The notes under the pieces were generated by a model. It was not told the origin of the DNA. It worked only from the letters and a program-made list of their open reading frames with translations, and searched no databases. A stretch of DNA of 64,000 nucleotides. It comes from Agromyces sp. CF514. Its GTDB lineage: Bacteria; Actinomycetota; Actinomycetes; Actinomycetales; Microbacteriaceae. The number at the start of each line of letters is the position of its first letter. The first letter of the stretch is position 1. Positions 27,474 through 46,703 of this stretch are shown in pieces. The DNA is taken from positions 1 through 64,000 of the forward strand of contig NZ_FOZD01000002.1 of NCBI RefSeq assembly GCF_900113185.1, in the 5' to 3' direction. The position numbers were made by a program, and so were the translations under genes.

Positions 27474-27780
27474 TGGTTCCTTCGAGCGGCCGGCGCGACG
27501 CCGACTCCGTTCAGTCTGGCACCGGCTCTGGGGCCGCACAACCGTTGAAACACCGCCTGTGACCTGTTAAGGGGGTCCATCGGAGCACCTCTGCGCGATG
27601 GTGCAGCAGACCCGTGCGGATCGTGCTGCGAGGCCCTTCGACGGGGGCGGTCGCACCGACATCCGTTGATCATCTGCCGGACACCTGTCGGTCGTGCATC
27701 CGGGGTCGAGCCGTAACCCGTCGATCGGATCCTGCTCAGCGAGCGGCCACGAGGGAGCCGCCGTTCGAGACGAGGGCAAC
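27474..27780. other. 307-bp divergent intergenic region
   Basis: Separates the leftward M23 gene and the rightward YegP-like/kinase operon and must hold both promoters. An AT-richer patch GTGACCTGTTAAGG (27559-27572) is the most promoter-like part. I looked for a c-di-AMP (ydaO) riboswitch, often found before cell-wall hydrolases in actinobacteria, and saw no convincing match. Confidence 0.4.
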
Positions 27781-28383
27781 GTGACCGAGGGATTGGTCAT
27801 GCGCGGAGCTCCGCCGGTCCATGGCGACGGGGCGCGCAGTCGGGTCACCTTCACCGCATTCGACTCGGTCGACGATCCGATGCTCGCCGCGTGGGGGCGA
27901 TTCAGGTTCCAACTGCTGGAATCGACCGAACCGCCGGTCGCAGACCTGAGGGCGGAAGTGCGGCGTGCGCCTGCATCGGTTTCGGTGGTGGCGGCGCACG
28001 GCCGCACATCCGACGCGCAGGCTGGGCTCTGGCGACTGCTCGCCAGCAACAACCGCGAGCTCGGTCGCAGTTCGCTGCTGTACGGCACGCACGCTGCGGC
28101 GCGGAACCACGTGCTGCGGCTGCAGGCGGCATCCGATGACCTGAAGGTCGTCGCGGTCGGCGGCCCGGTGAATGCGTCGCACGGGTGGGTCGTCAGCCTG
28201 GCGGACCGGCCCGTCATGACCTGCAGCCGGTGGTACAGCTCGACCTCCACGAGCATCGCATCGGCCATCGGCGCGCTTGCGGCGTTGCGGACCGCGGTGC
28301 TGTCGGAGGATGTCGACCGGAGCGCACCGTCGAGACGGTTCAGCCGCCGCGCAACGGTGAGGTCGGATGTCGGTCGGTGGTGA
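27781..28383 (+). CDS. Hypothetical protein with YegP/DUF1508-like domain
   Basis: 200 aa from GTG 27781 (GAGGGCAAC before it). I recognise only a weak YegP-like repeat: GLWRLLASNNRELGRSSLLY then THAAARNHVLRLQAASDDLK, the shape of DUF1508 (bend-strand-strand-helix). No signal or membrane segment. Its last 17 nt overlap the kinase start, so the two are translated together. It may be a partner or substrate of the kinase; function unknown. Confidence 0.65.
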   Translation: MTEGLVMRGAPPVHGDGARSRVTFTAFDSVDDPMLAAWGRFRFQLLESTEPPVADLRAEVRRAPASVSVVAAHGRTSDAQAGLWRLLASNNRELGRSSLLYGTHAAARNHVLRLQAASDDLKVVAVGGPVNASHGWVVSLADRPVMTCSRWYSSTSTSIASAIGALAALRTAVLSEDVDRSAPSRRFSRRATVRSDVGRW

Positions 28384-30379: not shown

Positions 30380-30399
30380 GTTCACCTCGTCGAGGGAAC
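30380..30399 (+). promoter_or_regulatory. Candidate regulatory site before pstC
   Basis: GTTCACCTCGTCGAGGGAAC. The first seven bases match the GTTCACC half-site of the Streptomyces PHO box, but the following 11-bp unit does not repeat it. The same bases can also be read as an imperfect inverted repeat (GTTC-A-CCTCG / CGAGGGAAC). Either way it lies where a PhoP-type regulator would act on pstC. Confidence 0.4.
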
Positions 30400-30485: not shown

Positions 30486-31751
30486 GTGAGCGGCCGGCCC
30501 GACCGGCCGGAGCCGAGCGGCGCAGCGGACGCGGGCGGCGACCCGTTCGAGTCGGGCGACCGGTTCGAGTCGGACGACCTGGCCGAGTCGGAGACATCCG
30601 GAACCGAATCGATGCCGGCGCCGTTCGAGGCCGTGGCCGACGTCTTCACCGACGCGGGGAACCGATACTCCGGCACGCAGGCGATCACCGCGATGCAGAG
30701 CCCCCTGGTGCTGCGCACGGAGGTGCTGTCCATCACGGACGACGAGGCACCTGCCGTTCCCGATGCGGTGGACGAGGCACCGCGCCCGCGTGCGCTCGTC
30801 TCGAGGGCGTCGCGCGTCGACCAGGTCTTCCGGGTCGTCGTGACCTCCGCCGGCGGAACCACGGTCGCGATCATGCTCGCCGTCGGCGTGTTCCTGTCGA
30901 TCAGGGCGGGTGACGCGCTCTCGGTCGCGGGCTTCTCCTTCCTCACCGAGACCGAATGGTCGCCCGAGACGCAGACGTTCGGCATCGCCGCCGTGCTGTT
31001 CGGCACCGTCTCGATCGCCGCGGTCGCGATGTGCGTGTCGGTGCCCTTGGCGCTCGGCACCTCGCTGCTGATCAGCGAGATCGTGCCTGGGCGCCTGAAG
31101 TCGACGCTCGTGAGCCTGGTCGACCTCATGGCGGCCGTGCCGAGCGTCGTGTTCGGCCTCTGGGGCGTGTTCTTCCTGCAGGCCAACGTGATCCCGGTCG
31201 CGCAGTGGATCTCGACCTACTTCGGGTGGATCCCGATCTTCGCGGTCACCGACGCCGACGGAAACCAGCTCACCGATGCGAGCGCGTACACCTCGTCGGC
31301 GTTCATCGCGGGCATCGTGGTGTCGCTCATGGTGGTTCCGACGCAGACCTCGGTCATGCGCGAGGCCTTCTCCCAGGCGCCGCTCGGCGAGCGCGAGGGG
31401 GCGCTCGCCCTCGGGTCGACGAGATGGGGCATGATCCGCACCGTCGTGCTCCCGTTCGGTCGAGGCGGCATCATCGGTGGAACGATGCTCGGCCTCGGGC
31501 GCGCCCTCGGCGAGACGATCGCGGTGTACATGATCATCTCGCCCATCTTCGAGATCAACTGGCAGGTGCTGAAGACCGGCTCGAACTCCGTCAGTGCGCT
31601 CATCGCCCTCCGCTACGGCGAGGCCAGCGAGTTCGGGTTGTCCGCGCTCATGGCGGCCGGGCTCGTGCTGTTCCTCATCACCCTGGTCGTCAACTTCGTG
31701 GCGTCCTCGATCGTGGCGCGCAGCCGGTCCGGCGCCGAGAGTCAGGCATAG
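30486..31751 (+). CDS. pstC: Phosphate ABC transporter permease PstC
   Basis: 421 aa from GTG 30486, chosen for AGGAG 8 nt upstream; an ATG at 30402 has no ribosome site. PstC has six membrane segments, here from ~residue 112; the permease signature is REGALALGSTRWGMIRTVVL and the C-terminus GRALGETIAVYMIISPIF is typical. An N-terminal cytoplasmic extension of ~110 acidic residues (repeated F-E-S-G/D-D units) is much longer than in E. coli. First of a GTG/TAG-overlapped run pstC-pstA-pstS. Confidence 0.92.
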   Translation: MSGRPDRPEPSGAADAGGDPFESGDRFESDDLAESETSGTESMPAPFEAVADVFTDAGNRYSGTQAITAMQSPLVLRTEVLSITDDEAPAVPDAVDEAPRPRALVSRASRVDQVFRVVVTSAGGTTVAIMLAVGVFLSIRAGDALSVAGFSFLTETEWSPETQTFGIAAVLFGTVSIAAVAMCVSVPLALGTSLLISEIVPGRLKSTLVSLVDLMAAVPSVVFGLWGVFFLQANVIPVAQWISTYFGWIPIFAVTDADGNQLTDASAYTSSAFIAGIVVSLMVVPTQTSVMREAFSQAPLGEREGALALGSTRWGMIRTVVLPFGRGGIIGGTMLGLGRALGETIAVYMIISPIFEINWQVLKTGSNSVSALIALRYGEASEFGLSALMAAGLVLFLITLVVNFVASSIVARSRSGAESQA

Positions 31752-33100
31752 TGACCATCCACGCGCCCCAGTACGACGACATCACGGAGGTCGTGGTCGC
31801 ACCGGACTCGCCTCCGGAGCCACGGCCGTCGGGCCGAACGACGACCCCTGGCACGCCGACCACGGAGGTGGGCCGGCGCCGACAGGTGCGCAGCGCGACG
31901 CTCGAGGACCGATTCAACGTGATCGGTGCGTTCGTCGCCGCGCTCGCGGTCTCCACGCTGTTGTTCGGGTGGCTCACGCCGATGACCGGGTTCGTCGGCT
32001 GGCTCGTCGTGACGTTCGTGATGTTCCTCGCCGTCTACGCCCTGCTCATCGCGCTGAGCGGCAGCCGTCAGCAGGTCGCCGACCGCATCATGACGAGCCT
32101 CTTCGGCAGCGCCGGCGTCATCCTGCTCTCGGCACTCGTCTTCGTGCTGCTGTTCACGGTGTTCCGTGGCATCCCGGCGCTCACCCACCTGAACTTCTTC
32201 GTCGAGACGATGGAGCTCGCGGGCCCGCTCGACCCGCTCGACATGGGCGGCATCCTGCACGCGATCGTCGGCACGCTGATCCAGATCTCGATCGCCCTCG
32301 CGATCACGATCCCGCTCGGCATCACCACGGCGATCTTCCTGAACGAGATCGGCGGCAGGTTCGCGCGATTCGTCCGCACGATCTCCGACGCGATGACGGC
32401 GCTCCCGTCGATCGTCGCCGGCCTGTTCGTCTACTCGGCCATCATCCAGCTGATCACCCACCAGCGATCGGGGTTCGCGGCGGCGCTGGCGATCAGCGTC
32501 ATGATGCTGCCGATCATCATCCGCGCCTCGGACGTCGTGCTCCGGCTCGTGCCCGGAAACCTCCGCGAGGCCGCATACGCCCTCGGCACCTCGCGATGGC
32601 GCACCGTCTGGCACGTGGTGCTGCCGACCGCACGCTCCGGACTCGTGACGGCCGTCATCCTCGGCACGGCACGGGGCATCGGCGAGACCTCACCGGTGCT
32701 GCTGACGTCGGGCGTCACCGCGGTGCTCAACCTCAACCCCTTCTCGGGTCCGATGATCTCGCTCCCGCTGCAGGTGTTCGACTTCGTGAAGTCGCCCGAG
32801 CCGAACATGGTCGCACGCGGGTTCGGAACGGCGGCGACGCTCGTGCTGCTCGTGCTCGCGCTGTTCCTCATCGCCCGCGCGATCGGCGGGCGGGCCCCCG
32901 GCGTGCTCGGCAGCCGTCAACGCAGGGCCGCCGCAGCTCGCAGCGCCGCGGATGTCTCGCGCATCGCGCTCGCGCACATGAAGCGCGAGGCCGCGGCGCA
33001 CCCGATCGACTACGCGCCGGATGCCGCGGCATCCGACCGCACGACCGACGTGCGCACCGATCCCGACACCCCTTCCCCGAACGAGGAGCCCCAGTCGTGA
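31751..33100 (+). CDS. pstA: Phosphate ABC transporter permease PstA
   Basis: 449 aa from the GTG sharing a base with the pstC stop (TAGTG). Six or more membrane segments in the middle; MMLPIIIRASDVVLRLVPGN and LGTSRWRTVWHVVLPTARSG (permease signature), then ARGIGETSPVLLTSG. Soluble extensions are present at both ends: ~55 residues before the first helix and ~60 after the last. Partner of PstC in the phosphate channel. Confidence 0.93.
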   Translation: MTIHAPQYDDITEVVVAPDSPPEPRPSGRTTTPGTPTTEVGRRRQVRSATLEDRFNVIGAFVAALAVSTLLFGWLTPMTGFVGWLVVTFVMFLAVYALLIALSGSRQQVADRIMTSLFGSAGVILLSALVFVLLFTVFRGIPALTHLNFFVETMELAGPLDPLDMGGILHAIVGTLIQISIALAITIPLGITTAIFLNEIGGRFARFVRTISDAMTALPSIVAGLFVYSAIIQLITHQRSGFAAALAISVMMLPIIIRASDVVLRLVPGNLREAAYALGTSRWRTVWHVVLPTARSGLVTAVILGTARGIGETSPVLLTSGVTAVLNLNPFSGPMISLPLQVFDFVKSPEPNMVARGFGTAATLVLLVLALFLIARAIGGRAPGVLGSRQRRAAAARSAADVSRIALAHMKREAAAHPIDYAPDAAASDRTTDVRTDPDTPSPNEEPQS

Positions 33101-34698
33101 CCACCCGACTCCGCCGCACGACCCGCGCGGCGCTCAGTTCCCTGCTGGTGCTGCTGCTGGCGGGAGGCATCGCCCAGTCCGGCGCGTCCGTCGCCAGCGC
33201 CGAGACCTGGATCCCCATCAGCGGAACCGGATCGACCTGGTCGCAGAACGCGCTCGACCAGTGGCGCAAGAACGTCGCGGCCAACTACGGCATGACGATC
33301 AACTACTCCGGCACCGGCTCGTCCGCCGGTCGACGGGACTTCATCGCCGGCACGGTCGACTTCGCCGTCTCGGAGATCCCGTTCCAGAGCGCGCCCGAAG
33401 ACAACTCGACGCCCGAGGTGCCGCTGTCGGGCTACGCGTACATGCCCATCGTGGCCGGTGGAACGTCGTTCATGTACAACCTGAAGATCGGCGGCAAGCG
33501 GGTGACTAACCTGCGACTGTCGGGAGACGTCATCACCAAGATCTTCACCGGTGCCATCGCGAAGTGGAACGACCCCGCGATCCAAGCCGACAATCCCGGC
33601 CTCGCGATGCCCGATCGGGCGATCGTGCCGGTCGTGCGCTCCGACGGCTCCGGCTCGAGTGCGCAGTTCTCGCTGTGGATGTCCAAGCAGTACCCGAGCC
33701 TCTGGGGGGCGGGCATGCGATCGCAGTTCCCGACCCCGGCGAACGGCAAGGCGCAGAACGGATCGCTCGGTGTCGCCGGGTACGTCAGCCAGGACTACGG
33801 CGAGGGCGCGATCACGTACGTCGAGTACTCCTACGCCCTCAAGTCGGGCTTCCCGGTCGCGAAGGTGCTCAACACGGCCGGGTACTACATCGAGCCCACG
33901 GCGAACTCCGTCGCGGTCGCCCTGCTCAGGGCCGGGATCAACTCGGATCTCTCGCAGAACCTCGACGGCGTGTACAACAACGACGACCCGCGAACGTATC
34001 CGCTGTCGAGCTACTCGTACATGATCGTTCCCACCGAGGTGAAGGCGCCCAGCATCTTCACCGAGGCGAAGGGCAAGACGCTCGGCGCCTTCGCGACCTA
34101 CTTCCTGTGCGAGGGCCAGCAGCAGGCCGCAGCGCTCGGCTATTCGCCGCTGCCGATGAACCTCGTGCGGGCCGGTTCCGAGGTCGTCAAGCGCATTCCC
34201 GGCGCGGGCACGGCGGGCGTCGACTTCAATTCGTGCAACAACCCCACGTTCAAGGCGGGCGAGAGCGAGTCCGACAACCAGCTCGCGAAGACCGCTCCCC
34301 AGCCCGCGGCCTGCGACAAGAAGGGTCCGGACCAGTGCACGACCGGCACCGCGGGTGCGCTCGGGGAGACGCCCGTCTCCGGGACCGGCAACGGCGGCGG
34401 CTCGGCCGACGGCGGAGCGGGCGGTGCCGCGACCGCCGGTGGTGGCACCGCCGCCTCGGGCGGTGCCGGGAGCTCCGGCGGCTCGGAGGCCGTGTACGAC
34501 GCGAACGGCAACCTCGTATCCGGAAACGCCACGGTCGCAGGTGCGGCGGTCTCGGCGCCGTTCACCCTGCCCGAGGACGACTGGGGTGCGCCGCAGGTGC
34601 TGATGGCCGTCGCCGGCGTGCTCCTGCTGCTGGCGATCGCCATTCCGCCGCTCGTCTCGCCTCGCCTCCGACGGGGCGCCCGAGGCGACCAGAGCTGA
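33097..34698 (+). CDS. pstS: Phosphate-binding PstS with C-terminal membrane anchor
   Basis: 533 aa from GTG 33097 (GAGGAG upstream; GTGA overlap with pstA). N-terminal Sec signal (SSLLVLLLAGGIAQSGASVA) without lipobox Cys. The phosphate-binding fold follows: ISGTGSTWSQNALDQWR, INYSGTGSSAGRRDFIAGTV, DFAVSEIPF, IFTGAIAKWNDPAI and VVRSDGSGSSAQFSLWM, which supply the phosphate-binding Ser/Thr/Asp. A Gly/Ser-rich linker (~430-490) leads to a C-terminal membrane helix (VLMAVAGVLLLLAIAIPPLV) and Arg-rich tail. Usual PstS is a lipoprotein or soluble; this one is anchored at its C-terminus on a flexible stalk. Confidence 0.93.
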   Translation: MTTRLRRTTRAALSSLLVLLLAGGIAQSGASVASAETWIPISGTGSTWSQNALDQWRKNVAANYGMTINYSGTGSSAGRRDFIAGTVDFAVSEIPFQSAPEDNSTPEVPLSGYAYMPIVAGGTSFMYNLKIGGKRVTNLRLSGDVITKIFTGAIAKWNDPAIQADNPGLAMPDRAIVPVVRSDGSGSSAQFSLWMSKQYPSLWGAGMRSQFPTPANGKAQNGSLGVAGYVSQDYGEGAITYVEYSYALKSGFPVAKVLNTAGYYIEPTANSVAVALLRAGINSDLSQNLDGVYNNDDPRTYPLSSYSYMIVPTEVKAPSIFTEAKGKTLGAFATYFLCEGQQQAAALGYSPLPMNLVRAGSEVVKRIPGAGTAGVDFNSCNNPTFKAGESESDNQLAKTAPQPAACDKKGPDQCTTGTAGALGETPVSGTGNGGGSADGGAGGAATAGGGTAASGGAGSSGGSEAVYDANGNLVSGNATVAGAAVSAPFTLPEDDWGAPQVLMAVAGVLLLLAIAIPPLVSPRLRRGARGDQS

Positions 34699-34715
34699 GT
34701 CGATCGGCATTCGAC

Positions 34716-34751
34716 AGACCAGCTTGAACTCAGGCTGATCTGGCCTTTCTT
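34716..34751 (+). terminator. Weak intrinsic terminator after pstS
   Basis: AGACCAGC (34716-34723) pairs with GCTGATCT (34734-34741) with one mismatch, and is followed by CCTTTCTT (34744-34751), the most T-rich stretch near a gene end in this window. May end part of the pstCAS transcripts; the next gene has its own promoter-like region. Confidence 0.45.
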
Positions 34752-34787
34752 CGCGCGTCGCACAAGGTTCGGCAGGCCGCTCCCGTC

Positions 34788-34820
34788 GTTGAGCACCCGT
34801 TCATCTGGGCGTCACGAACC
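34788..34820 (+). promoter_or_regulatory. PHO-box-like direct repeats and promoter
   Basis: Three consecutive 11-bp units: GTTGAGCACCC, GTTCATCTGGG, CGTCACGAACC. The first seven bases of each resemble GTTCACC, the PhoP half-site known in Streptomyces, with 5, 6 and 4 matches. CTAATT (34825-34830) follows as a possible -10, giving a ~45-nt leader to the GTG at 34881. Suggests that the second half of the locus is switched on by phosphate starvation. Confidence 0.5.
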
Positions 34821-34880
34821 GACCCTAATTTCAGTCCCGGCCGGCAGGAGAACTGCCCGAACATCCTCTTGGAGGAACCT

Positions 34881-37421
34881 GTGCAGAGCGCACGCACCAC
34901 TCGTTCGACGTGGATCGCATCCGGGACCTCCGGACTGCTGACCGGGGCCATCGTCTTCGCCGCCATCGCGTTCTCGGGTGTCGCCGTCGAGGCGTCGTCG
35001 GCGCGGGCGAACGACTCGTCGGCCGTGACCGTGACTGCCAAGGACGAGGATCCCGACGGGTACCAGGACGCCCCGTTCCCGGACCTCGCCGTGACGATCT
35101 CGCAGACGGAGCACCTCGTCGCGCAGGGCATCCAGATCGACTGGACCGGCGGCGAGAAGTCGGTCGCCCCCGGCTCGGGCAACGGCGGAACGAACTTCCT
35201 CCAGATCTTCATGTGCTGGCGCGACGACCCCGCCGACGCGACCCGGCCCGATCGCACCACGTGCCAGTACGGCGGCGCCAACACGCCCGGGGCCACGCGC
35301 GATGCGTACCGGAACCTGAAGCTCGCCGACATCCCCGAAGCCGACCAGCCCTACTCGGCGCTCACGGCGGTGCCGTTCCTGCCGCCGTACACCGGGATCC
35401 CGTTCGAGGCCCGTGACGGAACCCGCGTCGACGGGGTCGTGACGGATGCCGGGACGGGTGCGAAGTCGATCGACCCGAACGTCAACCTCAACGTCAACCA
35501 GTTCTTCACCTCGTACACGACGAACGAGATCCCGTGGGTCGGCTCGGGCGACGACGGCAAGGGATCGGTCTCGTTCGAGGTGCAGACCGCCGCCCAGTCG
35601 CCGGCGCTGGGGTGCGGAGAGGCCGTGACCGAAGGCGGCGCCACGACGGGCGCGAGCTGCTGGCTCGTCATCCTGCCGCGCGGCGAGGCCGACAACGGTT
35701 CGAGCACCATCACCCAGTCGGGGCTGTTCGAGGACTCCTGGAAGCACGCGCTCTCGGTGAAGCTGCGGTTCGAGCCGCTCGGCAGCCGGTGCCCGGTGGG
35801 TGCGTCGGAGCGTCAGCTCGCGGGCAGCGAGCTCGCGGCGCTCGCCGTGAACTCGTGGCAGCCGGCGGTCTGCAGCCAGGCGGGCGCCTCGGTGTACTCG
35901 CTCCTCACCATGCCCGAGTCGGACGCAGCGGTCGCTGCGGCGACCACCGTGGATGCACCGCTCGCCCTCACCAGCTACCCGCTGTCGCTCGAGGGCGCCG
36001 ACCCGTTGCAGTACGCGCCGATCGCATTGACCGGCGTGAGCGTCTCGGTCGCGATCGACCGCCGGCCCGACCCGTTCAAGGAGCTTCCCGACGAGTACCT
36101 GGATGCCGCGCACTCCGCGTTCACGAACGTGAACCTGACCCCGCGGCTCCTGGCCAAGCTCCTCACCTCCTCGTATCGGTCTGCGCTGCCGACCGGGGCC
36201 GATACCGGATATCTCACCGGAGTCATCCGCGACAACATCACCAAGGATCCCGACTTCCTCGAGGTCAACGACGAGGAATGGGCGGCCCAGGATCTCAACG
36301 GCCCGGCGATCGCCGACGTCATCGTGCCGCAGGGCCGCTCCGACGCGGCTCGTGCGGTGTGGGCCTACATCGCCGCCGACGCGGACGCCCGCGACTTCAT
36401 GGCCGGGAACGCCGACCCGTGGGGCATGACGGTGAATCCGTACTACGCGACGGATGCCTCGAAGAACCCCACCGGTTCCGCGTTCTCGTTCGACCGTGAC
36501 GACTTCCCGAAGGCCGACCCCATCGAGGTCTCGCCGACGAATACCGGACCCATCAACCTGGTGACCTGGCGCCCCTTCGCGAACGACCTCGGCACCGTCG
36601 CCTACCTGACCCTGCGTGGCGACGGCCAGGTGCTCGGCGGTTGGGATTCCAACTCGTTCCCACCGAAGTACACCAAGGGCGCGCGCATGCTCGCGGGCAA
36701 TCGCGCGCTGCTCGGGCTCACCAGCACCTCGGCGGCCGCCCGCTACCAGGTCGTCACGGCCTCGCTGCAGAACTCGGCGGATCGCTTCGTCGCCCCCACC
36801 GAGGGCGGCATGCTGGCGGCCGCCGAGGCGATGACCTCCGTCGACGAGCGAGGCCGCGTGCTCGGCTTCGTGGCGGACTCCGCGACCGCCCGCACCGCGA
36901 GCGAGGCATACCCGCTCACCCTGCCGGTCTACGCCGCGGCGAATCCCGCGGCGATCAGCGAGCCCCTGAGGGCCGCGTACGCCGCCTTCATCACGTACGC
37001 GGCGAGCGAAGACGGCCAGACGCCGGGGGTCGATGTCGGAAGGCTCCCCGAGGGCTACGCGTCGATCCCCCCGGCATGGGCCCAGGCGGCCGCGGCTGCG
37101 GCTGCGGCGATCGCGGCGGGGCCGACGACGCCGCCGACGAGCGCACCGTCGACGGTGCCCGGCACGACCGGCGGCTCCGCGAACCCGGCACCGACGGGGA
37201 CCGGATCCGGGGCGGGTGCCGGGGCTGCGCCGGCGACCGTGCAGCAACCTGCGGCGAGCGGCACGCCGAGCGCCGCCCTCACCGGGGGTACCACGCCGGA
37301 CGACCCCGCCGTGACGGCGGGGGCCGCGCTTCCGCTCAGCATTCTCGCCGGATCCGTCGGAGCGATCGCCAGCGCGATCGTCTCCCGGCGCCGGCCGATC
37401 AGAGCTTGGGCCCGCCGATAG
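34881..37421 (+). CDS. Large binding-protein-like surface protein of the pst locus
   Basis: 846 aa from GTG 34881, with GGAGG 5 nt upstream. Signal peptide or N-terminal anchor at residues ~14-35, then ~780 extracellular residues, a Pro/Thr/Gly/Ser linker (~745-810) and a C-terminal membrane helix (LPLSILAGSVGAIASAIVS) with an Arg-rich tail; no LPxTG. The middle resembles a type-2 periplasmic binding fold: PLALTSYPLSLEGADPLQYA, IALTGVSVSVAIDRRPDPFK, LTPRLLAKLLTSSY and DNITKDPDFLEVNDEEW, the order seen in PstS-like proteins around the hinge. The N-terminal ~250 residues (FMCWRDDPAD, Cys-containing) are unknown. Probably a ligand-capturing component; substrate unproven. Confidence 0.72.
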   Translation: MQSARTTRSTWIASGTSGLLTGAIVFAAIAFSGVAVEASSARANDSSAVTVTAKDEDPDGYQDAPFPDLAVTISQTEHLVAQGIQIDWTGGEKSVAPGSGNGGTNFLQIFMCWRDDPADATRPDRTTCQYGGANTPGATRDAYRNLKLADIPEADQPYSALTAVPFLPPYTGIPFEARDGTRVDGVVTDAGTGAKSIDPNVNLNVNQFFTSYTTNEIPWVGSGDDGKGSVSFEVQTAAQSPALGCGEAVTEGGATTGASCWLVILPRGEADNGSSTITQSGLFEDSWKHALSVKLRFEPLGSRCPVGASERQLAGSELAALAVNSWQPAVCSQAGASVYSLLTMPESDAAVAAATTVDAPLALTSYPLSLEGADPLQYAPIALTGVSVSVAIDRRPDPFKELPDEYLDAAHSAFTNVNLTPRLLAKLLTSSYRSALPTGADTGYLTGVIRDNITKDPDFLEVNDEEWAAQDLNGPAIADVIVPQGRSDAARAVWAYIAADADARDFMAGNADPWGMTVNPYYATDASKNPTGSAFSFDRDDFPKADPIEVSPTNTGPINLVTWRPFANDLGTVAYLTLRGDGQVLGGWDSNSFPPKYTKGARMLAGNRALLGLTSTSAAARYQVVTASLQNSADRFVAPTEGGMLAAAEAMTSVDERGRVLGFVADSATARTASEAYPLTLPVYAAANPAAISEPLRAAYAAFITYAASEDGQTPGVDVGRLPEGYASIPPAWAQAAAAAAAAIAAGPTTPPTSAPSTVPGTTGGSANPAPTGTGSGAGAGAAPATVQQPAASGTPSAALTGGTTPDDPAVTAGAALPLSILAGSVGAIASAIVSRRRPIRAWARR

Positions 37422-37479
37422 GCGTGTTCGAGCCGGGCACCCCAGCGGCGCCCGGAACCCACCATCGAAAGGGAACGGA

Positions 37480-38631
37480 ATGAAGTCCAGGAAGGTAGTC
37501 GCCCTCGGGGCGACTGCGGCCATCGCCCTCGCGGGCTTGGCTTTCGGCGCAGCTCCGGCGCAGGCTGATCCGATCAGCGACGGGTACTCGGTCGTCGGTT
37601 CCGACACGCTCCAGGACGCGGTCGGCGCGCTCGCGAACGGCACCGGCATCACCGGCTCGCAGGTGAAGCTCAAGGGTGCCGGCACCTCGCTCGCGTCGTG
37701 GGATGCCTTCACGCTCGGCGTCTCGGGCGGCGTCGGCAAGATCCAGACCAAGGCCTTCGGCAACGTGTTCGATCGGCCCAACGGCTCGGGAGCGGGCCGG
37801 ACGGCGCTCCTCCGCTCGATCAACTACTCGAGCAGCACCTCGTACAACGGCGTCAACGTCGCGGGCCAGATCGACCTCGCCCGCAGCTCGTCCAAGGGCA
37901 CGAGCGTCGCCGGCGGCGTGCTCACCTACCTGCCGTTCGGTCAGGACGCGATCGGCTTCATCTACAAGATCGGCGCCGATGCCAACAGCAACGGCGACGC
38001 CGCCGCCGCAAAGACCTGGATCGACGGCCTCACGACCGCCGAGCTCAACTCGTTCTACTCCGCCTCCTCGCCGGTCGCCGTTCCCGGCACCGACTACACC
38101 GTGAAGCCGCTCGCCATCCAGTCCAGCTCCGGCACGTGGACCACGTTCCTCTCCAAGATCGGCGTGACAAACATCGGCGGCGCGGTCGACACCCGCAACA
38201 ACTCGATCCCCGAGAACGACGGCACCGTGCTGACGCCCGCGGCCGACCAGATCCAGCTCATCCCGCTGTCGGTGGCGAACTACATCGGCCAGGTGAACGG
38301 TGCCTCCCGCATCAACACCATGGCAGGCGTGACCGTCGGCACGATCGGCGGCGTCGCGCCGGCGACCGGTACCGCTCCGAACGTCACGCCGAACACCGCG
38401 TACTTCAACAGCTCGACCTGGGGCCGCACGGTCTTCATCGTCGTGCCGACCGCGCGGATCACGCCCGGCAACGCCGCGTACGACCAGGGCCTGTTCGCGC
38501 TGACCGACCCGGCTGCGTCGTCGAGCCTGACCTACTGGGGCGCCTCCGGGTCGCCCGCGACCACCAAGGCAGTGAAGGCCAAGTTCGGCTTCTCGGCCCC
38601 GCAGGACGCGGCCTTCACCGCGAACAACTGA
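37480..38631 (+). CDS. Secreted PstS-like substrate-binding protein
   Basis: 383 aa, start ATG 37480 after AAAGGGAACGGA. Sec signal (VALGATAAIALAGLAFGAAP, cleaved after AQA) and no lipobox or anchor, so it is released or held by another protein. Binding-protein motifs: YSVVGSDTLQDAVGALANG, KLKGAGTSLASWDAF, PNGSGAGRTALLRSIN and IDLARSSSKGTS, then YLPFGQDAIGF. The GSDT, SGAGR and ARSSS pieces correspond to the oxyanion-binding loops of phosphate-binding proteins. Only 29 bp separate it from the WxL gene. Confidence 0.78.
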   Translation: MKSRKVVALGATAAIALAGLAFGAAPAQADPISDGYSVVGSDTLQDAVGALANGTGITGSQVKLKGAGTSLASWDAFTLGVSGGVGKIQTKAFGNVFDRPNGSGAGRTALLRSINYSSSTSYNGVNVAGQIDLARSSSKGTSVAGGVLTYLPFGQDAIGFIYKIGADANSNGDAAAAKTWIDGLTTAELNSFYSASSPVAVPGTDYTVKPLAIQSSSGTWTTFLSKIGVTNIGGAVDTRNNSIPENDGTVLTPAADQIQLIPLSVANYIGQVNGASRINTMAGVTVGTIGGVAPATGTAPNVTPNTAYFNSSTWGRTVFIVVPTARITPGNAAYDQGLFALTDPAASSSLTYWGASGSPATTKAVKAKFGFSAPQDAAFTANN

Positions 38632-38660
38632 CCCACCCAACCAGCAAGGAGAACACGGAA

Positions 38661-40262
38661 ATGAAGATGCTCTCTCGGCGAGGCCGGAACGGCCTCGTCG
38701 CCGTTGCGGTCGCCGCTGCACTCGTCGCCGTCCCGGCGATGTCTGCGAATGCCGCGGTGGTTCCCACCGTCGGATCCGACAAGCCCCTCTACCTCCAGGA
38801 CACCGACACGGGAATCCAGATCCCTGCCGGCACGTCGCTGAACTGGAACGCCAACATCGTCGCGTCGCCCGAGGCGAACGACGAGGACTACAACGCCGCG
38901 TTCCCGGCACCTGCCGGCACCACCAAGGCGGTCACGTTCCTCGCTCCGCGCGGACAGGAGAAGAACTACACCTCCTGGAACGCGTTCGCCAGCCTCGGCA
39001 ACCCGTCGCAGCTGCTCATGGCTTCGATCACCCCGTCCGGCAACACGTCGGCCGGACAGGGCTCCCCCTCGGGTGCCGGAGCCGTGGCGATCGCGGGCGG
39101 TGACTACTCGCTGGGCGTCGCCTTCCTCGTCGACGAGACGAAGACGGTGCTCGAGGCCGACTTCACCTTCATCACGGTCGTCGCCAACGCCAACCCGAAC
39201 AACGCGACCTGGACGTTCGACACCCCCACGCAGGCAGTGTTCCCCGACTTCGCCAACTATTCGGCCACGGCCGGCGCATCCGCGGTGATCCGCAACGGCA
39301 ACCTCGAGATCGACGCCACCGCGGCCAACGCGAACAAGACGGTCGACGTCTTCGTGGAGGGCACGGCTGCGAAGGTCGCGACCGTGACGCTCTCCGCACA
39401 GGGCAAGGCCGTCAACACGCTGCCCGCGGGCGTCTCCACCGGCAAGCGCCTCGTGCTCGCCGAGGGCCAGACGGCCGTCGCATGGGTCGCGGCGTCCGAC
39501 TACGTCGCCCCGGCCCCGGTCGAGCCGACCGGCACGCCGAACGCCACCATCTCGACCCCGGCCGAGGGCGACGGCAGCGTCACCATCGACGCAGGTGTCG
39601 CGAACGCGGGCAAGACGCTCCGCGCGGTGGGCTGGTCGAACCCGACCGAGCTCGGCAACGTGCTCCTCGACTCGAACGGTATGGGCACCGTGAGCATCGT
39701 CGGCCTCTCGACGGGTGCCACGCACACGATCGCGCTGCTCGACACCGACAACGCCGTCGTGGCGTGGGGGACCGTCGCCATCCCGGCGCCGACCTACACG
39801 CTGCAGAGCGAGGTCGACCTGTCGGCCGAGGTGCTCAACTCGGGCAAGTTCGCGCTCGAGGGTGCGGCCGCGCCCGTCAACCTCGGGTCGATCAAGCGCG
39901 GCGGCACCACCGCCGCCGTGCCGCTCGGCGCCTTCACCGTGACCGACGACCGCGACGACCTCAAGGGCTGGACCCTCAAGGCCGACGTGGCCGACTTCGT
40001 GAACGGCGGCAACACCATCGCCAAGAGCGCGCTCGGCGTCACCCCGAAGATCGTCGGCGGCGAGACGGACGGCATCTCCACCGGCGCCACCCAGGTCGCC
40101 GGCTCGGGCGTCTACTCGGCGACCCTCGCCGACGCCGCGGTCGGCTCGACCACCATCGAGACCGGCGCCCAGCTCGACGCGGACCTGACCTTCAAGGCTC
40201 CCAAGACCGCGAAGAAGGGCACCTACACGTCGACCATCACGCTGACGCTCGTCTCGAAGTAA
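38661..40262 (+). CDS. WxL-domain surface protein
   Basis: 533 aa; AAGGAG 11 nt before the ATG. Sec signal ending SANAA. N-terminal domain (~30-185) starts with PLYLQDTDTG and includes TSWNAFASLGNPSQLL. The middle (~185-390) has two Ig-like parts. The C-terminal ~130 residues look like a WxL domain: LKGWTLKADVADF with W437-T-L439, then GTYTSTITLTLVSK at the very end. WxL domains, known from Gram-positive bacteria, bind peptidoglycan non-covalently and WxL-interacting proteins; the gene for such a protein is next. The N-terminal domain is repeated in the protein of 42296-42910. Confidence 0.75.
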   Translation: MKMLSRRGRNGLVAVAVAAALVAVPAMSANAAVVPTVGSDKPLYLQDTDTGIQIPAGTSLNWNANIVASPEANDEDYNAAFPAPAGTTKAVTFLAPRGQEKNYTSWNAFASLGNPSQLLMASITPSGNTSAGQGSPSGAGAVAIAGGDYSLGVAFLVDETKTVLEADFTFITVVANANPNNATWTFDTPTQAVFPDFANYSATAGASAVIRNGNLEIDATAANANKTVDVFVEGTAAKVATVTLSAQGKAVNTLPAGVSTGKRLVLAEGQTAVAWVAASDYVAPAPVEPTGTPNATISTPAEGDGSVTIDAGVANAGKTLRAVGWSNPTELGNVLLDSNGMGTVSIVGLSTGATHTIALLDTDNAVVAWGTVAIPAPTYTLQSEVDLSAEVLNSGKFALEGAAAPVNLGSIKRGGTTAAVPLGAFTVTDDRDDLKGWTLKADVADFVNGGNTIAKSALGVTPKIVGGETDGISTGATQVAGSGVYSATLADAAVGSTTIETGAQLDADLTFKAPKTAKKGTYTSTITLTLVSK

Positions 40263-40299
40263 CCCGCTTCGAGCCGCCGTCGGCGGTCCCGTGAACACC

Positions 40300-40334
40300 C
40301 GCGTGGAGAAGGCGCCCAGCGCCTTCTCCACGCG
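40300..40334 (+). terminator. Perfect 16-bp hairpin after the WxL gene
   Basis: Arms 40300-40315 and 40319-40334 pair without mismatch around CCA. No U-tract follows. It lies 37 bp behind the WxL stop and 67 bp before the next gene of the same set, so partial termination or 3'-end protection, giving more WxL protein than downstream membrane proteins, is likely. Confidence 0.6.
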
Positions 40335-40401
40335 GCCGGTTCATGCCTCCACAACCTCTGCTTCGCCTGTCCGCAACCTGAATCAAGAAACATCGAGCGC
40401 T

Positions 40402-41523
40402 GTGACCATGCAATCCCCCACCCGAGCCCGTACGGGCTCGATCCGCGCCGTCGAGGCGTTGGCGCGCGCGCTGGCCGTCGTGGCGCTCGCCGCAGCGACC
40501 GTGCTCGTCGGCGCGACCCCCGCCCACGCCGATGATTCCGTCGGGATCTCCGCCAGGCCGGCGGCAGCCGACGGCTCGTCCGACGCCCGCACCCGGTTCG
40601 AGTACCTCGCCGACCCCGGCCAGCGCGTCGAGGATCACTTCTCGGTCACGAACACGGGCACCGCCGCCCAGACGTTCACCGTGCTCGGCACCGACGCCTT
40701 CAACGACAGCGACGGCGACTTCGCCCTGCTGCCGACCGTCGAGGAGCCCACCCTCGCCGGCACGTGGATCCGGTTCGAGAACGGCGCGAACCGCATCCAG
40801 TTCGACCTCGGCCCAGGTGAGACGCGGCTGCTTCCGTTCAGCCTCGAGCTCCCGGCGGAGGCGACGCCCGGAGACCACGTCGGAGGACTCGTGGCATCCG
40901 TCGTCACCCCCGGCGAGCAGGTGACCCTCGACCGCCGCGTCGCGACCAGGCTGTACGTGCGGGTGTCAGGTCAGCTGCAGCCCGCCCTCAACGTCTCGGG
41001 CATCGGCGGCGAGCACGTCGGCGACTGGTGGAACCCCTTCGCAGGCGCGCTCACGCTCCACTACGTCGTCAAGAACACCGGCAACATCGCGGTCGCCGCA
41101 AATTCGTCGACGACCATCGACACGTGGTTCGGCATCACCGCGGCGCCGCAGATCGGCGGTGGAGTCAGCGAGATCCTGCCCGGGCAGGAGGCCGAGATCG
41201 AGGTCGACGTGCCCGGTGTGGCTCAGTGGGGCTATCTCAACGCAGCCGTCAGGTTGAACCCCTTCGTCGATTCGACCGATCCGAGCATGCAGCTGACCGT
41301 CGCGCCTTCGACCCGGGACGCGATCGTCATCGCGCCGCCGTGGGCGCTGCTGCTCGCGATCGCGCTCGTCGTGGCCGTGGTATTCCTCATCCGTCGCCGC
41401 CGTCGCCAGGACGACCAGCGAGCGCGTGAGTGGATGGCCTATACCGAGCAGGAAGCGGCACGGAAGGCTCAGGACCAGCGCGATGCCGAGCTCGCCGGCG
41501 CGGGCAGGGCGGCGGGGTCGTGA
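40402..41523 (+). CDS. WxL-interacting-type membrane protein (DUF916-like)
   Basis: 373 aa from GTG 40402; ATG 40408 is equally possible and neither has a good ribosome site. Sec signal (~15-38), then two beta domains: residues ~40-170 as in the DUF916 peptidoglycan-binding part of WxL-interacting proteins (FEYLADPGQRVEDHFSVTNT and LPFSLELPAEATPGDHVGGL), residues ~195-310 as in the partner-binding part (LHYVVKNTGNIAVAANSS, VDVPGVAQWGYLNAAVRL). C-terminal membrane helix APPWALLLAIALVVAVVFLI and a basic cytoplasmic tail. It should hold the WxL protein at the membrane-wall interface. Confidence 0.8.
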   Translation: MTMQSPTRARTGSIRAVEALARALAVVALAAATVLVGATPAHADDSVGISARPAAADGSSDARTRFEYLADPGQRVEDHFSVTNTGTAAQTFTVLGTDAFNDSDGDFALLPTVEEPTLAGTWIRFENGANRIQFDLGPGETRLLPFSLELPAEATPGDHVGGLVASVVTPGEQVTLDRRVATRLYVRVSGQLQPALNVSGIGGEHVGDWWNPFAGALTLHYVVKNTGNIAVAANSSTTIDTWFGITAAPQIGGGVSEILPGQEAEIEVDVPGVAQWGYLNAAVRLNPFVDSTDPSMQLTVAPSTRDAIVIAPPWALLLAIALVVAVVFLIRRRRRQDDQRAREWMAYTEQEAARKAQDQRDAELAGAGRAAGS

Positions 41524-42299
41524 CGTCGCGTCCCCCTCGCCGCTCGCGCTCGGTCGTGCTGACCGGGGCCGCCCTCTCGGCAGCACTCGTCGGGATGTTG
41601 AGCATCAGCGTGGTCGAGCAGGCGAGAGCCGAGGACGATCTCGCGGGCACACCCCTGTCGGTGACGATCCTCGACGAGGACGCACCCACGACGACGCCGC
41701 CGACGACCGGCCCCACCGGCGCGACGGGCTCTCCCGGCGCCGTCGGGGCACTCGGGGGCATGGGAGGGTCCCAGCCGACCGCGCCGGCGGCGTCCGACAC
41801 CGCCGTGCCCGCGGCTCCGGCCTCCGACGAATTGTCGATGGGCGGAGTCCTCTACATCGGCGGTCTCGAATCGACGTTCACGCCGTCGACGGATCCCCTG
41901 GCCGGTGACGTGGATCTCTCGTTCACCGTGCGGAACGCCTCGAAGAAGGCCTTCGACTCGAGGGCGACCTTCTGGATCGAGACGCCCTTCGGCGCGCGTC
42001 TCGACTCGGCGCGCGCCGACATGGAAGCCCTCGCCGCAGGCGAGTCCCGTCGGGTGCAGGTGCGCCTGACGGGCGTCGGCCAGTGGCCGATCGTGAACGC
42101 CTCGGTCACGCTGACTCCGCCGACGCAGGTGGAAGGCACCGAACTGACGCCCATCACTCGCGAGACCACCGTGCTCGCGTTCCCGTGGGCGCTCGCACTG
42201 TTCGCGGTGCTCGTGGGCTCGGCGGTCGCCGTGTTCCGATTGCTTCGGTCCAAGCGCCTCGTGACCGTGTCCCCGCGACCGCAAGGAGCCGCCGCATGA
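41520..42299 (+). CDS. Paralogue of the C-terminal half of the WxL-interacting protein
   Basis: 259 aa from GTG 41520 (GTGA overlap). Sec signal, a Pro/Thr/Gly linker (~45-105), then one beta domain and a C-terminal membrane helix. Line-up with the preceding protein is clear over its second half: LSFTVRNASKKAFDSRATFW against LHYVVKNTGNIAVAANSSTT, RLTGVGQWPIVNASVTL against DVPGVAQWGYLNAAVRL, and TTVLAFPWALALFAVL against DAIVIAPPWALLLAIAL. The DUF916-like N-terminal half is absent. Probably arose by duplication and would offer a second partner-binding site. Confidence 0.72.
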   Translation: MTSRPPRRSRSVVLTGAALSAALVGMLSISVVEQARAEDDLAGTPLSVTILDEDAPTTTPPTTGPTGATGSPGAVGALGGMGGSQPTAPAASDTAVPAAPASDELSMGGVLYIGGLESTFTPSTDPLAGDVDLSFTVRNASKKAFDSRATFWIETPFGARLDSARADMEALAAGESRRVQVRLTGVGQWPIVNASVTLTPPTQVEGTELTPITRETTVLAFPWALALFAVLVGSAVAVFRLLRSKRLVTVSPRPQGAAA

Positions 42300-42910
42300 C
42301 CGCGGAGACCGACGGCGCCCGGTCCGAGCGGTCGCGCCGTCGCCGTCGGACGGTCATCGTCGCAGGCGCAGCAGGCGTCGCGCTTCTCGGGATCGTCGTG
42401 GGAGTGATCGTCGCCTGGTCGGGCGGGGCGGGCACGCCGCCCAGCGACGGGCCGATCTACCTCTGGGACACTGCCGCCGATGAGTTCGCCGAGGCGCCCG
42501 GAGCGACGTTCGCCGCCGAGCGGTCGGTCAACTGGGCAGGTGACGACACCGACTCGTTGGTGCCCATCGTCTGCCCCGCCGACTCGACCGAGGCCTTCAC
42601 GTTCATCAGCCGTGCCGGCTCGGAACGCACGGGCATCTCCGGGTGGCAGGCGTACTCCGTCTCGGGGTTCGACCCCGAACCGACGGTGGCAGGCCGTCTC
42701 GAGGTCCTGCTGCCGGTGGCTTCGCTCGACTACCAGAGCGACGGATCCCTCCCGGCGTACGAAGCGGTCCTGCGCGACGGCGGCACGTGGAGCGCGGGCC
42801 TCGCCTGCACGACCGATGCAGGGCGCGCCGTCACCGGGGCCTTCTACCGCACCGTCCAGATCGCGGCGGATGCCGGCAGCTTCACCGTCGATCCGATCGG
42901 CGGCAAGTGA
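42296..42910 (+). CDS. Membrane-anchored paralogue of the WxL protein's N-terminal domain
   Basis: 204 aa; AAGGAG 8 nt before the ATG; ATGA overlap with the previous gene. Arg-rich N-terminus then one membrane helix (VIVAGAAGVALLGIVVGVIV), leaving ~165 residues outside. These match the first domain of the WxL protein at 38661: PIYLWDTAADE against PLYLQDTDTG, AFTFISRAGSERTGISGWQAYS against AVTFLAPRGQEKNYTSWNAFAS, and GTWSAGLACTTD against GDYSLGVAFLVD. Two cysteines (VCPAD, LACTT) could form a disulfide. It lacks the WxL domain and is tethered by its helix instead. Confidence 0.7.
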   Translation: MTAETDGARSERSRRRRRTVIVAGAAGVALLGIVVGVIVAWSGGAGTPPSDGPIYLWDTAADEFAEAPGATFAAERSVNWAGDDTDSLVPIVCPADSTEAFTFISRAGSERTGISGWQAYSVSGFDPEPTVAGRLEVLLPVASLDYQSDGSLPAYEAVLRDGGTWSAGLACTTDAGRAVTGAFYRTVQIAADAGSFTVDPIGGK

Positions 42911-43926
42911 CGGCCATGGCGTTGACCACCACGCCGGAGCAGGAGCACCGGCCGGTGCTCGAGCAGCCGGGGCCACCCCAGCAGCCCGGGCCGCCTCGGC
43001 CGCCCGGGGGGCCCCGGCCGCCGAAGGCCCCCAGGCCGCCGAGACGCCCGCCGCGTCCGCCCGTCGAGCTCGCACCGCTGACGACCGGGCAATCCCTGCT
43101 GCGCGGCCTCACCGCACTCGTCGCCGTGCTGCTGCTCGCGTTCTCGGCCGAGCTGCTGGTGCTCAGCCATCTGCAGCACCTCGCCGCGCAGCAGCGACTG
43201 GGCGACACCTACCGGCAGCAGCTCGCCGACGGCACCGCGCCCGTGAGCGAGGGCGACTTCGAGGACGTGCTGCTGGCCGACGGCGCCCCGGTCGGCATCC
43301 TCGACATCCCGACGATCGGCGTGCACGAGGTGCTCTCCGAGGGCACCTCGTCCGGCGTGCTGACCGGAGGCCCAGGCCACCTGCGGTCGACGGTGCTGCC
43401 GGGCCAGGCCGGAGTGAGTGTCATCATGGGGCGCGCCGCGGCGTACGGCGGGCCGTTCAGTCGCATCCAGCAGCTCTCGCCCGGTGACACCCTCGTGGTG
43501 CGCACCGGCCAGGGGGAGTCCGAGTTCGAGGTCATCGGCCTGCGGTACGGCGGGGACCCCACTCCGCCTGCCCCAGTGCGAGGCGAGAGTCGACTCATCC
43601 TGCAGACGGCGCGGGGGGCGCCCTTCGTGCCGACGGGCGTCGCGTACGTGGACGCCAGGTCCACCGGCGAAGCGCTGCCGGCCGGCGCCAGGCAGACCTC
43701 GACCCTCAGCCTCCGCCCGCAGGACACGGCACTGGCCACGGACACGTCCACGGTGTGGGCACTGGTCTTCGCGCTCCAGTTCCTCGTGATCGCCGAGTTC
43801 GCGGCCGTGTGGTCGTTCCGGCGCCTCGGCCCGCAGAAGACGTGGATCGTCTTCCTCCCCGTGCTGCTCATCGGAGGCCTCTTCGTCGCCGACCAGGTCG
43901 TGCGGCTGCTGCCGAACCTGCTCTGA
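42907..43926 (+). CDS. Sortase-fold membrane protein lacking the catalytic residues
   Basis: 339 aa from GTG 42907 (GTGA overlap) or ATG 42916. A Pro/Arg-rich cytoplasmic N-terminus (~15-50), one membrane helix (~62-83), a sortase domain (~115-260), and two more helices (VWALVFALQFLVIAEFAAVW and IVFLPVLLIGGLFVADQVV). The fold is recognisable: VGILDIPTIGVHEVLSEG, GGPGHLRSTVLPGQAG, YGGPFSRIQQLSPGDTLVV. But the GHR motif is GRA (His replaced by R176), the TLxTC motif is LILQTARG (Cys replaced by A235) and the following Arg is missing. It cannot work as a transpeptidase. No LPxTG protein is encoded in the locus, so a structural or binding role is likely. Confidence 0.78.
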   Translation: MTAMALTTTPEQEHRPVLEQPGPPQQPGPPRPPGGPRPPKAPRPPRRPPRPPVELAPLTTGQSLLRGLTALVAVLLLAFSAELLVLSHLQHLAAQQRLGDTYRQQLADGTAPVSEGDFEDVLLADGAPVGILDIPTIGVHEVLSEGTSSGVLTGGPGHLRSTVLPGQAGVSVIMGRAAAYGGPFSRIQQLSPGDTLVVRTGQGESEFEVIGLRYGGDPTPPAPVRGESRLILQTARGAPFVPTGVAYVDARSTGEALPAGARQTSTLSLRPQDTALATDTSTVWALVFALQFLVIAEFAAVWSFRRLGPQKTWIVFLPVLLIGGLFVADQVVRLLPNLL

Positions 43927-43962
43927 ACCGATACCCCACCGCTCCCCATGAAGGACGAGAAC

Positions 43963-44859
43963 ATGCCAGAGACGACCACGATCATCGACGTCGTTCCCGA
44001 CCGTCGCGGCCAGGGGTTCCGCCTGCCGTCGTTCGGGCGCCGGCCGGCGGCATCCGAGAGCGAGGCGACAGCGGCGCCTCCCTCGCTCGCGACCCTCGAT
44101 GCACGGAACATCTCCGCCTGGTTCGGCGACCACCAGGTGCTCGACCGCGTGTCGCTCGAAATGCCCGCAGGCGTCGTCACCTCGCTCATCGGGCCGTCGG
44201 GATGCGGCAAGTCGACGTTCCTGCGCATCCTGAACCGCATGCACGAGCTGGTGCCGTCTGCGAGCCTCGCGGGCGAGGTGCTGCTCGACGGCGACGACAT
44301 CTACGATCGCGAGAAGTCGCTCACCGAGGCCCGCAAGCACATCGGCATGGTGTTCCAGAAGCCCAATCCGTTCCCGGCGATGTCGATCTACGACAACGTG
44401 GTGGCGGGCCTGAAGCTCACCGGTACGCGAGTCGACCGGGATGCGAAGGACCAGCTCGTCGAGTCCTCGCTCGCGAAGGCCGGACTCTGGAAAGAGGTCA
44501 AGGATCGCCTGCGCGCACCCGGCGGCGGGCTCTCGGGCGGCCAGCAGCAGCGCCTCTGCATCGCGCGGTCGCTGGCGGTGAAGCCGCGCGTGCTGCTCAT
44601 GGACGAGCCGTGCTCGGCGCTCGACCCGACGTCGACGCGCGTCATCGAGGAGACCATGCTCGAGCTCGTGCACGACGTGACGATCGTGATCGTGACGCAC
44701 AACATGCAGCAGGCGCAGCGCGTGTCGCAGCAGTGCGCGTTCTTCCTCGCCGCACACGGCACGCCGGGCGCGATCGTCGAGCACGGCGACACCGAGGCGA
44801 TGTTCGCCGACCCGATCGACCCCCGCACGTTCGACTACGTCAACGGGCGGTTCGGGTAG
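43963..44859 (+). CDS. pstB: Phosphate ABC transporter ATPase PstB
   Basis: 298 aa from ATG 43963 (AAGGACGAG before it; an ATG five codons earlier lacks a ribosome site). Walker [22 protein letters not shown]-loop [20 protein letters not shown], signature [16 protein letters not shown], Walker [17 protein letters not shown] and [12 protein letters not shown] are all those of PstB. A ~45-residue N-terminal extension is unusual. It is separated from pstCAS by seven surface-protein genes, 9 kb away, yet lies in the same direction at the end of the run. No phoU follows. Confidence 0.94.
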
Positions 44860-46533: not shown

Positions 46534-46587
46534 GCCTCCATTCCAGCGTGCGCCCGTGCGTGCGAGAATGACCAGGGGCCGGCATCC

Positions 46588-46603
46588 GTCCGGGATCCCG
46601 GAC
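46588..46603. promoter_or_regulatory. hut operator copy 3 (between hutH and iclR)
   Basis: GTCCGGGATCCCGGAC, a perfect 16-bp palindrome, 54 nt from the hutH start codon and 62 nt from the iclR start. Best version of the element also found upstream of hutU and of the hutG-like gene. The neighbouring IclR-family regulator is the obvious binder. Confidence 0.85.
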
Positions 46604-46656
46604 GCCGCTCAGGTGCGGCGATCGGTGCCGCGCCACGCCGACGTCGGTCAGTGAAA

Positions 46657-46703
46657 GGTCGCAAAGTGCCGGAATCCGGGTCTCAGAACGACCATTTGCG
46701 ACC
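46657..46703. promoter_or_regulatory. Inverted repeat over the iclR start
   Basis: GGTCGCAAA (46657-46665) and TTTGCGACC (46695-46703), perfect 9-bp arms with 29 bp between. The left arm abuts the GTG start codon and the right arm is inside the first codons. Differs in sequence from the hut palindrome. May be an autoregulation site or a weak mRNA hairpin limiting translation. Confidence 0.5.

Follow-up and report, generated by a model that had tools for sequence, protein, structure and literature searches.

Pst-type transporter genes interleaved with WxL-like cell-surface genes in Agromyces sp. CF514: a possible accessory importer with a capture stage in the cell wall

The window analysed here, 64,000 nucleotides (nt) of Agromyces sp. 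CF514 (positions 1 to 64,000 of contig NZ_FOZD01000002.1, assembly GCF_900113185.1), is the start of a 1.15-Mb contig in a genome of 4.3 Mb. It carries an array in which pstC, pstA and pstS are followed by seven cell-surface genes, X1, X2, WxL, WIP (for WxL-interacting protein), sWIP, sWxL and srt, and then by pstB (Table 1). This interleaving of pst and surface genes had been described in a sequence-only reading by a model, and our analysis confirmed it, with every gene on the plus strand. The same reading counted ten genes from pstC to pstB. There are 11, and the five overlapping starts that it gave were right, stop and start codons overlapping at five of the ten junctions (pstC/pstA, pstA/pstS, WIP/sWIP, sWIP/sWxL and sWxL/srt). 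At the sWxL/srt junction an alternative in-frame ATG for srt lies a few codons downstream, and pstS and X1 are separated by a spacer of 182 nt. The reported absence of phoU from the array was also found; the two PhoU matches of the genome both fall in one 263-residue frame about 8 kb from its other pst operon.

Table 1. Features of the array and its upstream flank, in positions of the window
Feature	Position	Strand	Basis
Ser/Thr protein kinase with PASTA domains	28367..30343	+	PF00069, PF03793
Lone GTTCACC ahead of pstC, weak candidate for a PHO box	30380..30386	+	motif counts
pstC, long N-terminal extension	30486..31751	+	TIGR02138 241.5 bits > 196.45, match from residue 112
pstA, N- and C-terminal extensions	31751..33100	+	TIGR00974 222.1 bits > 193.45, residues 112-378 of 449
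pstS, signal peptide and C-terminal transmembrane anchor	33097..34698	+	TIGR00975 227.7 bits > 205; hydropathy
Putative PhoP-type operator, three 11-nt units (first degenerate), then TAATTT at 34826-34831	34788..34820	+	motif/matrix analysis; unit boundaries and hexamer by reading
X1: N-terminal domain; PstS-fold binding domain at residues 306-752; linker of low confidence; hydrophobic segment at the C-terminus	34881..37421	+	
X2, secreted PstS-like binding protein, no second hydrophobic segment	37480..38631	+	profile against PDB; hydropathy
WxL-like protein: N-domain in common with sWxL; beta-rich middle; WxL-like domain at the C-terminus (about 394-533)	38661..40262	+	
WIP, WxLIP/DUF916-like protein, C-terminal hydrophobic helix	40402..41523	+	PF06030
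sWIP, short paralogue of the WIP C-terminal part, C-terminal hydrophobic helix	41520..42299	+	profile comparison; hydropathy
sWxL, short paralogue of the N-domain of WxL, anchored by an N-terminal hydrophobic segment	42296..42910	+	profile comparison; hydropathy
srt, pseudo-sortase, one N-terminal and two C-terminal hydrophobic segments	42907..43926	+	PF04203; hydropathy
pstB	43948..44859	+	TIGR00972 337.1 bits, cut-off 343.2

PstC, PstA and PstS all exceeded their NCBIfam equivalog cut-offs. For PstB the best family was the PstB equivalog TIGR00972, yet its score fell just under the cut-off; the protein is 55% identical to the genome's other PstB. In these assignments the array resembles a PstSCAB phosphate ATP-binding cassette (ABC) transporter. 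It differs from one in that pstB is parted from pstCAS by the seven surface genes, PstS has a C-terminal hydrophobic anchor, and two additional PstS-type proteins are encoded. The genome also holds an ordinary pstSCAB operon on its contig C1, and a third PstS elsewhere. At the usual Asp of the SD motif, the array's PstS has Glu in 44 of 47 alignment rows with a letter there, two duplicate loci being among the rows. More than one PstS homologue per genome has been reported in Synechococcus WH8102 and mycobacteria (PMC10846223, PMC7866108; published work is cited here and below from the accessible part of each source). The present genome shares this feature with them but differs in that a single array encodes three PstS-type proteins, their pockets diverged, along with a wall scaffold.

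A synteny search showed that the array recurs in A. bauzanensis and widely beyond it, which contradicts a chance juxtaposition. In A. bauzanensis the identities were 47% for X1, 39% for X2, 38% for WxL, 53% for WIP, 42% for sWIP and 57% for srt, with no separate sWxL. Scanning genome contigs with an X1 alignment gave 48 named loci, mostly from Microbacterium, Cryobacterium, Agromyces and relatives, and also from Tessaracoccus and some metagenome-assembled genomes; two of the 48 (L044 and L047) are records under one strain name. The proposed coupling to Pst held across this set, in which pstS and X2 were both present in 48/48 and pstS was the nearest upstream same-strand cluster gene in 47/48. 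A WxL or sWxL match was found in 46 of these loci and a WIP or sWIP match in 45. A de-duplicated set of 71 loci was also used, omitting three copies of named loci (L107, L109, L150) and two weak X2 matches without a cluster (L105 and L106, E-values (E) 2e-4 and 5e-4). In this set, at least one pst gene lay in the retrieved stretch for 68 loci; no pst gene was seen in L091, L094 and L098 (two on contigs of 3.5 kb and 6.1 kb, one seen over 14 kb of an 18.7-kb contig), and L103 showed X2, a partial X1 and pstB only. X2 was present in 24 of 297 genomes of the order, two of the 24 being weak and without a cluster. A strong X1 match (E<1e-60) was found in 6 of 396 genomes of the phylum, this one included. 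The other five all have pstC, pstA and pstS, one of them (G501) being a contig already in the named set; weaker X1 matches, nearly all to the PstS-like end, were found in 28 more of the 396.

X1 and X2 had been called binding-protein-like, and both were found to be so: X1 has a predicted two-lobed PstS fold, and X2 is homologous to PstS-like proteins, its profile matching PDB entries 9l8j (2.1e-9), 1twy (1.3e-7) and 4q8r (2.5e-5). Hydropathy analysis gave a C-terminal hydrophobic segment in PstS, X1, WIP and sWIP, and only a signal-peptide-like one in X2 and WxL. In a motif alignment, GxxT, SD and RxDGSGT, which we take to be the phosphate-ligand motifs of PstS, were replaced in X1 by GSEL, TS(R) and GRSD. 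The X1 pocket is conserved but unlike that of PstS, with E317 in 46/47, R486 in 43/47, S487 in 43/47 and D488 in 45/47 sequences.

The assignment of WxL and WIP to a wall-scaffold family was supported by PF13731 and PF06030 matches among their relatives. PF13731 (WxL) was matched by 11 of 46 relatives at E<=0.1, at best with 1.8e-4, and the protein of the window itself gave no match. Among 42 WxL-like relatives, 38 have the first motif, DxR..GWxL, and none the second Trp-x-Leu motif; the two-motif pattern being absent, we call the protein WxL-like. Its structural model had a predicted local distance difference test score of 85 and a predicted template modelling score of 0.45. PF06030 (DUF916, PGBD) was matched by 43/43 WIP relatives at E<=0.1 (best 1.5e-9) and by the WIP of the window at 7.9e-5, under the Pfam cut-off; its predicted C-terminal transmembrane helix is the hydropathy segment 312-330. 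DUF3324 was not among the matches listed for WIP (best 25 of 35 families, E<=0.1). Profile comparison bore out the two short paralogues, with a probability of 100% for WxL against sWxL and 99.9% for WIP against sWIP. A separate sWxL gene is rare, occurring in 5/71 loci and lying between WxL and WIP in three of those. The sortase fold of srt (PF04203, E 4.1e-11) and the loss of its catalytic residues were likewise seen. At positions located through motifs that we take to mark the sortase active site, the catalytic His is Arg in 43/43 relatives and the catalytic Cys is Ala in 40/43; Cys is wholly absent from 33/43, and the catalytic residues are lost across the set.

WxL/WxLIP (csc) clusters of Firmicutes likewise combine a WxL-like domain with a DUF916/WxLIP protein that has a transmembrane helix (PMC9772566, PMC10599100, PMC1534035). 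Set against the accessible text of these reports, the array differs in the loss of the second WxL motif, in its coupling to Pst and in its occurrence in Actinomycetota, and its short form is a paralogue of the N-domain rather than a WxL domain. More than 91% of 938 WxL sequences were from Firmicutes (PMC9772566), and WxLIP has been predicted to insert a beta-strand into WxL (PMC10599100). In a tree of WIP sequences (one row, from L104, being a 45-residue fragment), 42 cluster WIPs, mostly of Microbacteriaceae, were grouped (98/98) and separate from the other WIPs of this genome, and cluster WIPs from other families were placed elsewhere; the well-supported branches are also compatible with a single origin. 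The genome has six other WxLIP-family matches (one of them weak, E 0.006), three of which adjoin, by reading, a protein whose tail is WxL-like. In the surroundings of the six, a GH127 arabinofuranosidase and GH30/GH43 domains are encoded and, beside HupE, a purple acid phosphatase that has a WxL-like tail. The scaffold therefore looks like a general display device, of which the pst cluster would be the phosphate version. Glycosidases lie near two of these other WIP loci (L155, L158) and, by reading, sugar ABC transporter genes near three (L155, L159, L160), in a set that also includes L157. The phosphatase locus (L156:5987-11335, C1 about 1,115,000-1,120,300) encodes a surface protein that combines purple acid phosphatase domains with what reads as a WxL-like tail, beside a WIP and a HupE/UreJ-2 protein. 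It resembles the Ang-2/HupE-metallophosphatase-DUF916 loci of Actinomycetota (PMC12537917), which share with the array a WIP beside a large surface protein and a phosphate theme. They differ from the array in that the accessible part of that report does not name pst genes or X1/X2 there.

Some loci appear to separate a core from the scaffold. L097 and L100-L102, all from one other family, and the distant L152-L154 keep pstCAS, X1, X2 and srt (X2 being weak in L153), with WxL/WIP not detected. In six of the 13 loci without detected WxL/WIP (L097, L100, L101, L102, L152 and L154; L152 counted from the Pfam result), X2 is fused to Big_3_5 immunoglobulin (Ig)-like repeats. Such fusions were found in none of the 58 loci with WxL/WIP, where no X2 extension exceeds 43 residues (Fisher p 1.2e-5, not corrected for relatedness, the Pfam scans having been made on proteins picked after their length was seen). 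We infer that X2 needs a stalk, which the WxL/WIP module would supply. In a distant cluster, a gene between the pseudo-sortase and X2 (L085:14435-15577) encodes a protein that carries an LPxTG-like anchor close to its end.

The sequence-only reading had made phosphate regulation of the seven genes a condition of its proposal, and a putative PhoP-type promoter was found before X1 that would fit phosphate control. The Pho-regulon pattern of 11-nt direct repeats of the GTTCACC type is present at 34788-34820, its units degenerate. GTTCACC is a conserved motif in S. coelicolor (PMC4415409), and two 11-nt repeats upstream of pstS have been described (PMC7866108). We analysed the 21 pstS-X1 gaps of 100-400 bp among the 48 loci considered, L043, L065 and L047 being excluded from motif counts. 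In an unbiased count the top 7-mers were CGTTCAT (17/21, expected 0.23) and GTTCATC (14/21, expected 0.28). GTTCAT or GTTCAC occurred in 20/21 gaps, in most cases, by reading, as the second of three 11-nt units with a TA-rich hexamer behind them. The density of GTTCAYC was eightfold higher in the gaps (3.25 per kb) than across the same loci (0.39 per kb). A PHO matrix for the genus was built from the upstream regions of 29 pstS matches outside the cluster, of which 27 had a clear site (consensus GTTCACCTnCCGTTCACCGnCG; second paralogues not sorted out). It scored on average 2.7 on the gaps, against -6.7 (standard deviation 1.1) on shuffles and -9.6 on reverse complements. Upstream of pstC, GTTCACC was found in 19/41 loci against 1.0 in shuffles, or 1.53 per kb against 0.21 in the same loci. 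At window 34724-34743, 65 nt upstream of the site before X1, lies a 20-nt sequence that repeats the PHO-type site imperfectly (70% identity), perhaps a second operator.

Taken together, these analyses establish, at the level of sequence, the gene set, the predicted folds and anchors, the conserved linkage and a PHO-like promoter ahead of X1 to pstB. On balance, the array probably encodes a Pst-type ABC importer that is accessory, controlled by PhoP and extended in its capture stage from the membrane into the cell wall. Under phosphate limitation, X1 to pstB would come under PhoP-type control. With WIP clamping the WxL-like protein in the way published for WxL/WxLIP, the scaffold would hold X2 out in the wall, X1 may be a membrane-proximal adaptor in a PstS-PstCA assembly, and the pseudo-sortase would be a structural subunit, not an enzyme. 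Capture of phosphate or a phospho-compound at the wall would then raise the supply to PstS/PstCAB. The further proposal of a wall-spanning Gram-positive relay, in which phosphate or a phospho-compound is handed inward by wall-displayed X2, the membrane-anchored PstS-fold adaptor X1 and anchored PstS, the scaffold being made, according to lineage, of separate WxL/WxLIP proteins or of Ig domains fused to X2, seems to us unlikely in that full form. From the earlier interpretation, the coupling to Pst, the binding-protein folds of X1 and X2 and the wall-scaffold family stand, and the putative PhoP-type promoter would fit phosphate control. X1 itself is unlikely to be a simple phosphate carrier because the phosphate ligands are gone from its pocket and conserved acidic residues have appeared there, and the WIP family also occurs without pst.

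Several points weigh against an importer of this kind. X1 lacks the PstS phosphate ligands, and X2, in a motif reading of the alignment, lacks the usual Arg/Asp positions; neither, therefore, need bind free phosphate. The sequence-only reading had itself named an occurrence of the seven genes away from pst as contrary evidence. This was found for the WIP family, with its six other matches in the same genome, and not for X1, X2 or the pseudo-sortase in the stretches examined; the presence of WIPs without pst weakens that earlier interpretation. The WIP tree suggests that WxL/WIP may have been recruited more than once. WxL/WIP went undetected in 13/71 loci, seven of these 13 also lack the Ig fusion (several at contig ends or truncated), and the Ig-versus-WxL contrast is not phylogenetically independent. 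As for the promoter, the site at 34788-34809 ranks only sixth in the window on both strands, two of the five higher sites lying inside WIP and sWIP and none in the X1 promoter. The best matrix site differs from the aligned site in 4/21 gaps, GTTCACC is over-represented window-wide (18 against 5.1 expected), and only 21/48 loci have a gap of 100-400 bp before X1, a size sufficient for a promoter of its own. The pstC-proximal GTTCACC in the window lacks a good second unit (matrix rank 396), and 11-nt spacing upstream of pstC is only slightly favoured.

Another explanation, which we regard as doubtful but worth serious attention, is that X1 and X2, instead of widening the capture of phosphate, give the same permease another substrate (such as a phosphate ester, a phosphodiester, another oxyanion or a cation-phosphate complex), each binding protein docking separately. 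The conserved, non-PstS-like pocket of X1, the Glu for Asp in PstS in 44/47 and the separate pstSCAB of the genome would fit this. However, PstS passes the phosphate equivalog cut-off, the promoter is PHO-like, and three PstS homologues of marine Synechococcus, with a difference in the pocket, were all highly specific for phosphate (PMC10846223). That the surface genes form a phosphate-starvation adhesin or a wall-remodelling complex, merely co-regulated with pst and without contact with the transported ligand, is improbable, since two of the seven proteins have a PstS-type fold or homology and the loci without detected WxL/WIP retain X1, X2 and srt with pst.

The PASTA Ser/Thr kinase, which precedes pstC in 33/48 named loci and follows pstB in L078 and L088, is possibly a functional associate of the cluster. 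Together with the changed binding-protein pocket of X1, its position would suit a phosphate-sensing complex in which X1/X2 report extracytoplasmic phosphate to the PASTA kinase or PhoR and transport is secondary. We think this very unlikely: no kinase lies in the upstream flank (2.0-6.1 kb examined) of L073, L074, L076, L079, L082, L083 and L085, and most loci of sufficient length to show both permease genes and pstB retain them, L103 being an exception. A chance neighbourhood, or surface genes hitch-hiking within a pst operon, might be read from the sporadic distribution in the genus (X2 in 3 of the first 25 genomes), but dozens of diverged loci share the gene order, with protein identities of about 30-60%, which makes it scarcely credible.

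Other genes of the window lie outside the array. After the cluster, 44938-47505 encodes a histidine ammonia-lyase-like aromatic amino acid lyase on the minus strand and a regulator of the IclR type; both look unrelated to it. An M23 peptidase with a long Pro-Thr repeat lies on the minus strand at 26019-27539. A binding-protein-dependent transporter (SBP_bac_11 protein and permease domain; PBP_like_2 match below threshold) is encoded, also on the minus strand, at 6889-8561.

In the open-licence literature searched (WxL, DUF916, PstS, sortase, phosphate uptake, Microbacteriaceae) we found no description of a combination of Pst with WxL/WxLIP surface genes; where WxL and PstS are mentioned together there, pstS is a typing locus. 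The usual picture of a Gram-positive ABC importer stops at the membrane, where a single binding protein is anchored. Our results suggest that some soil actinobacteria apparently have a second phosphate importer with extra phosphate-binding-type proteins and a wall scaffold, which would be switched on by phosphate shortage. With a conserved Pst system that has three PstS-type proteins and a wall scaffold, it would become directly testable whether nutrient capture can be moved into the wall. This would extend WxL/WxLIP modules to nutrient uptake in Actinomycetota, and would suggest a role for a conserved inactive sortase.

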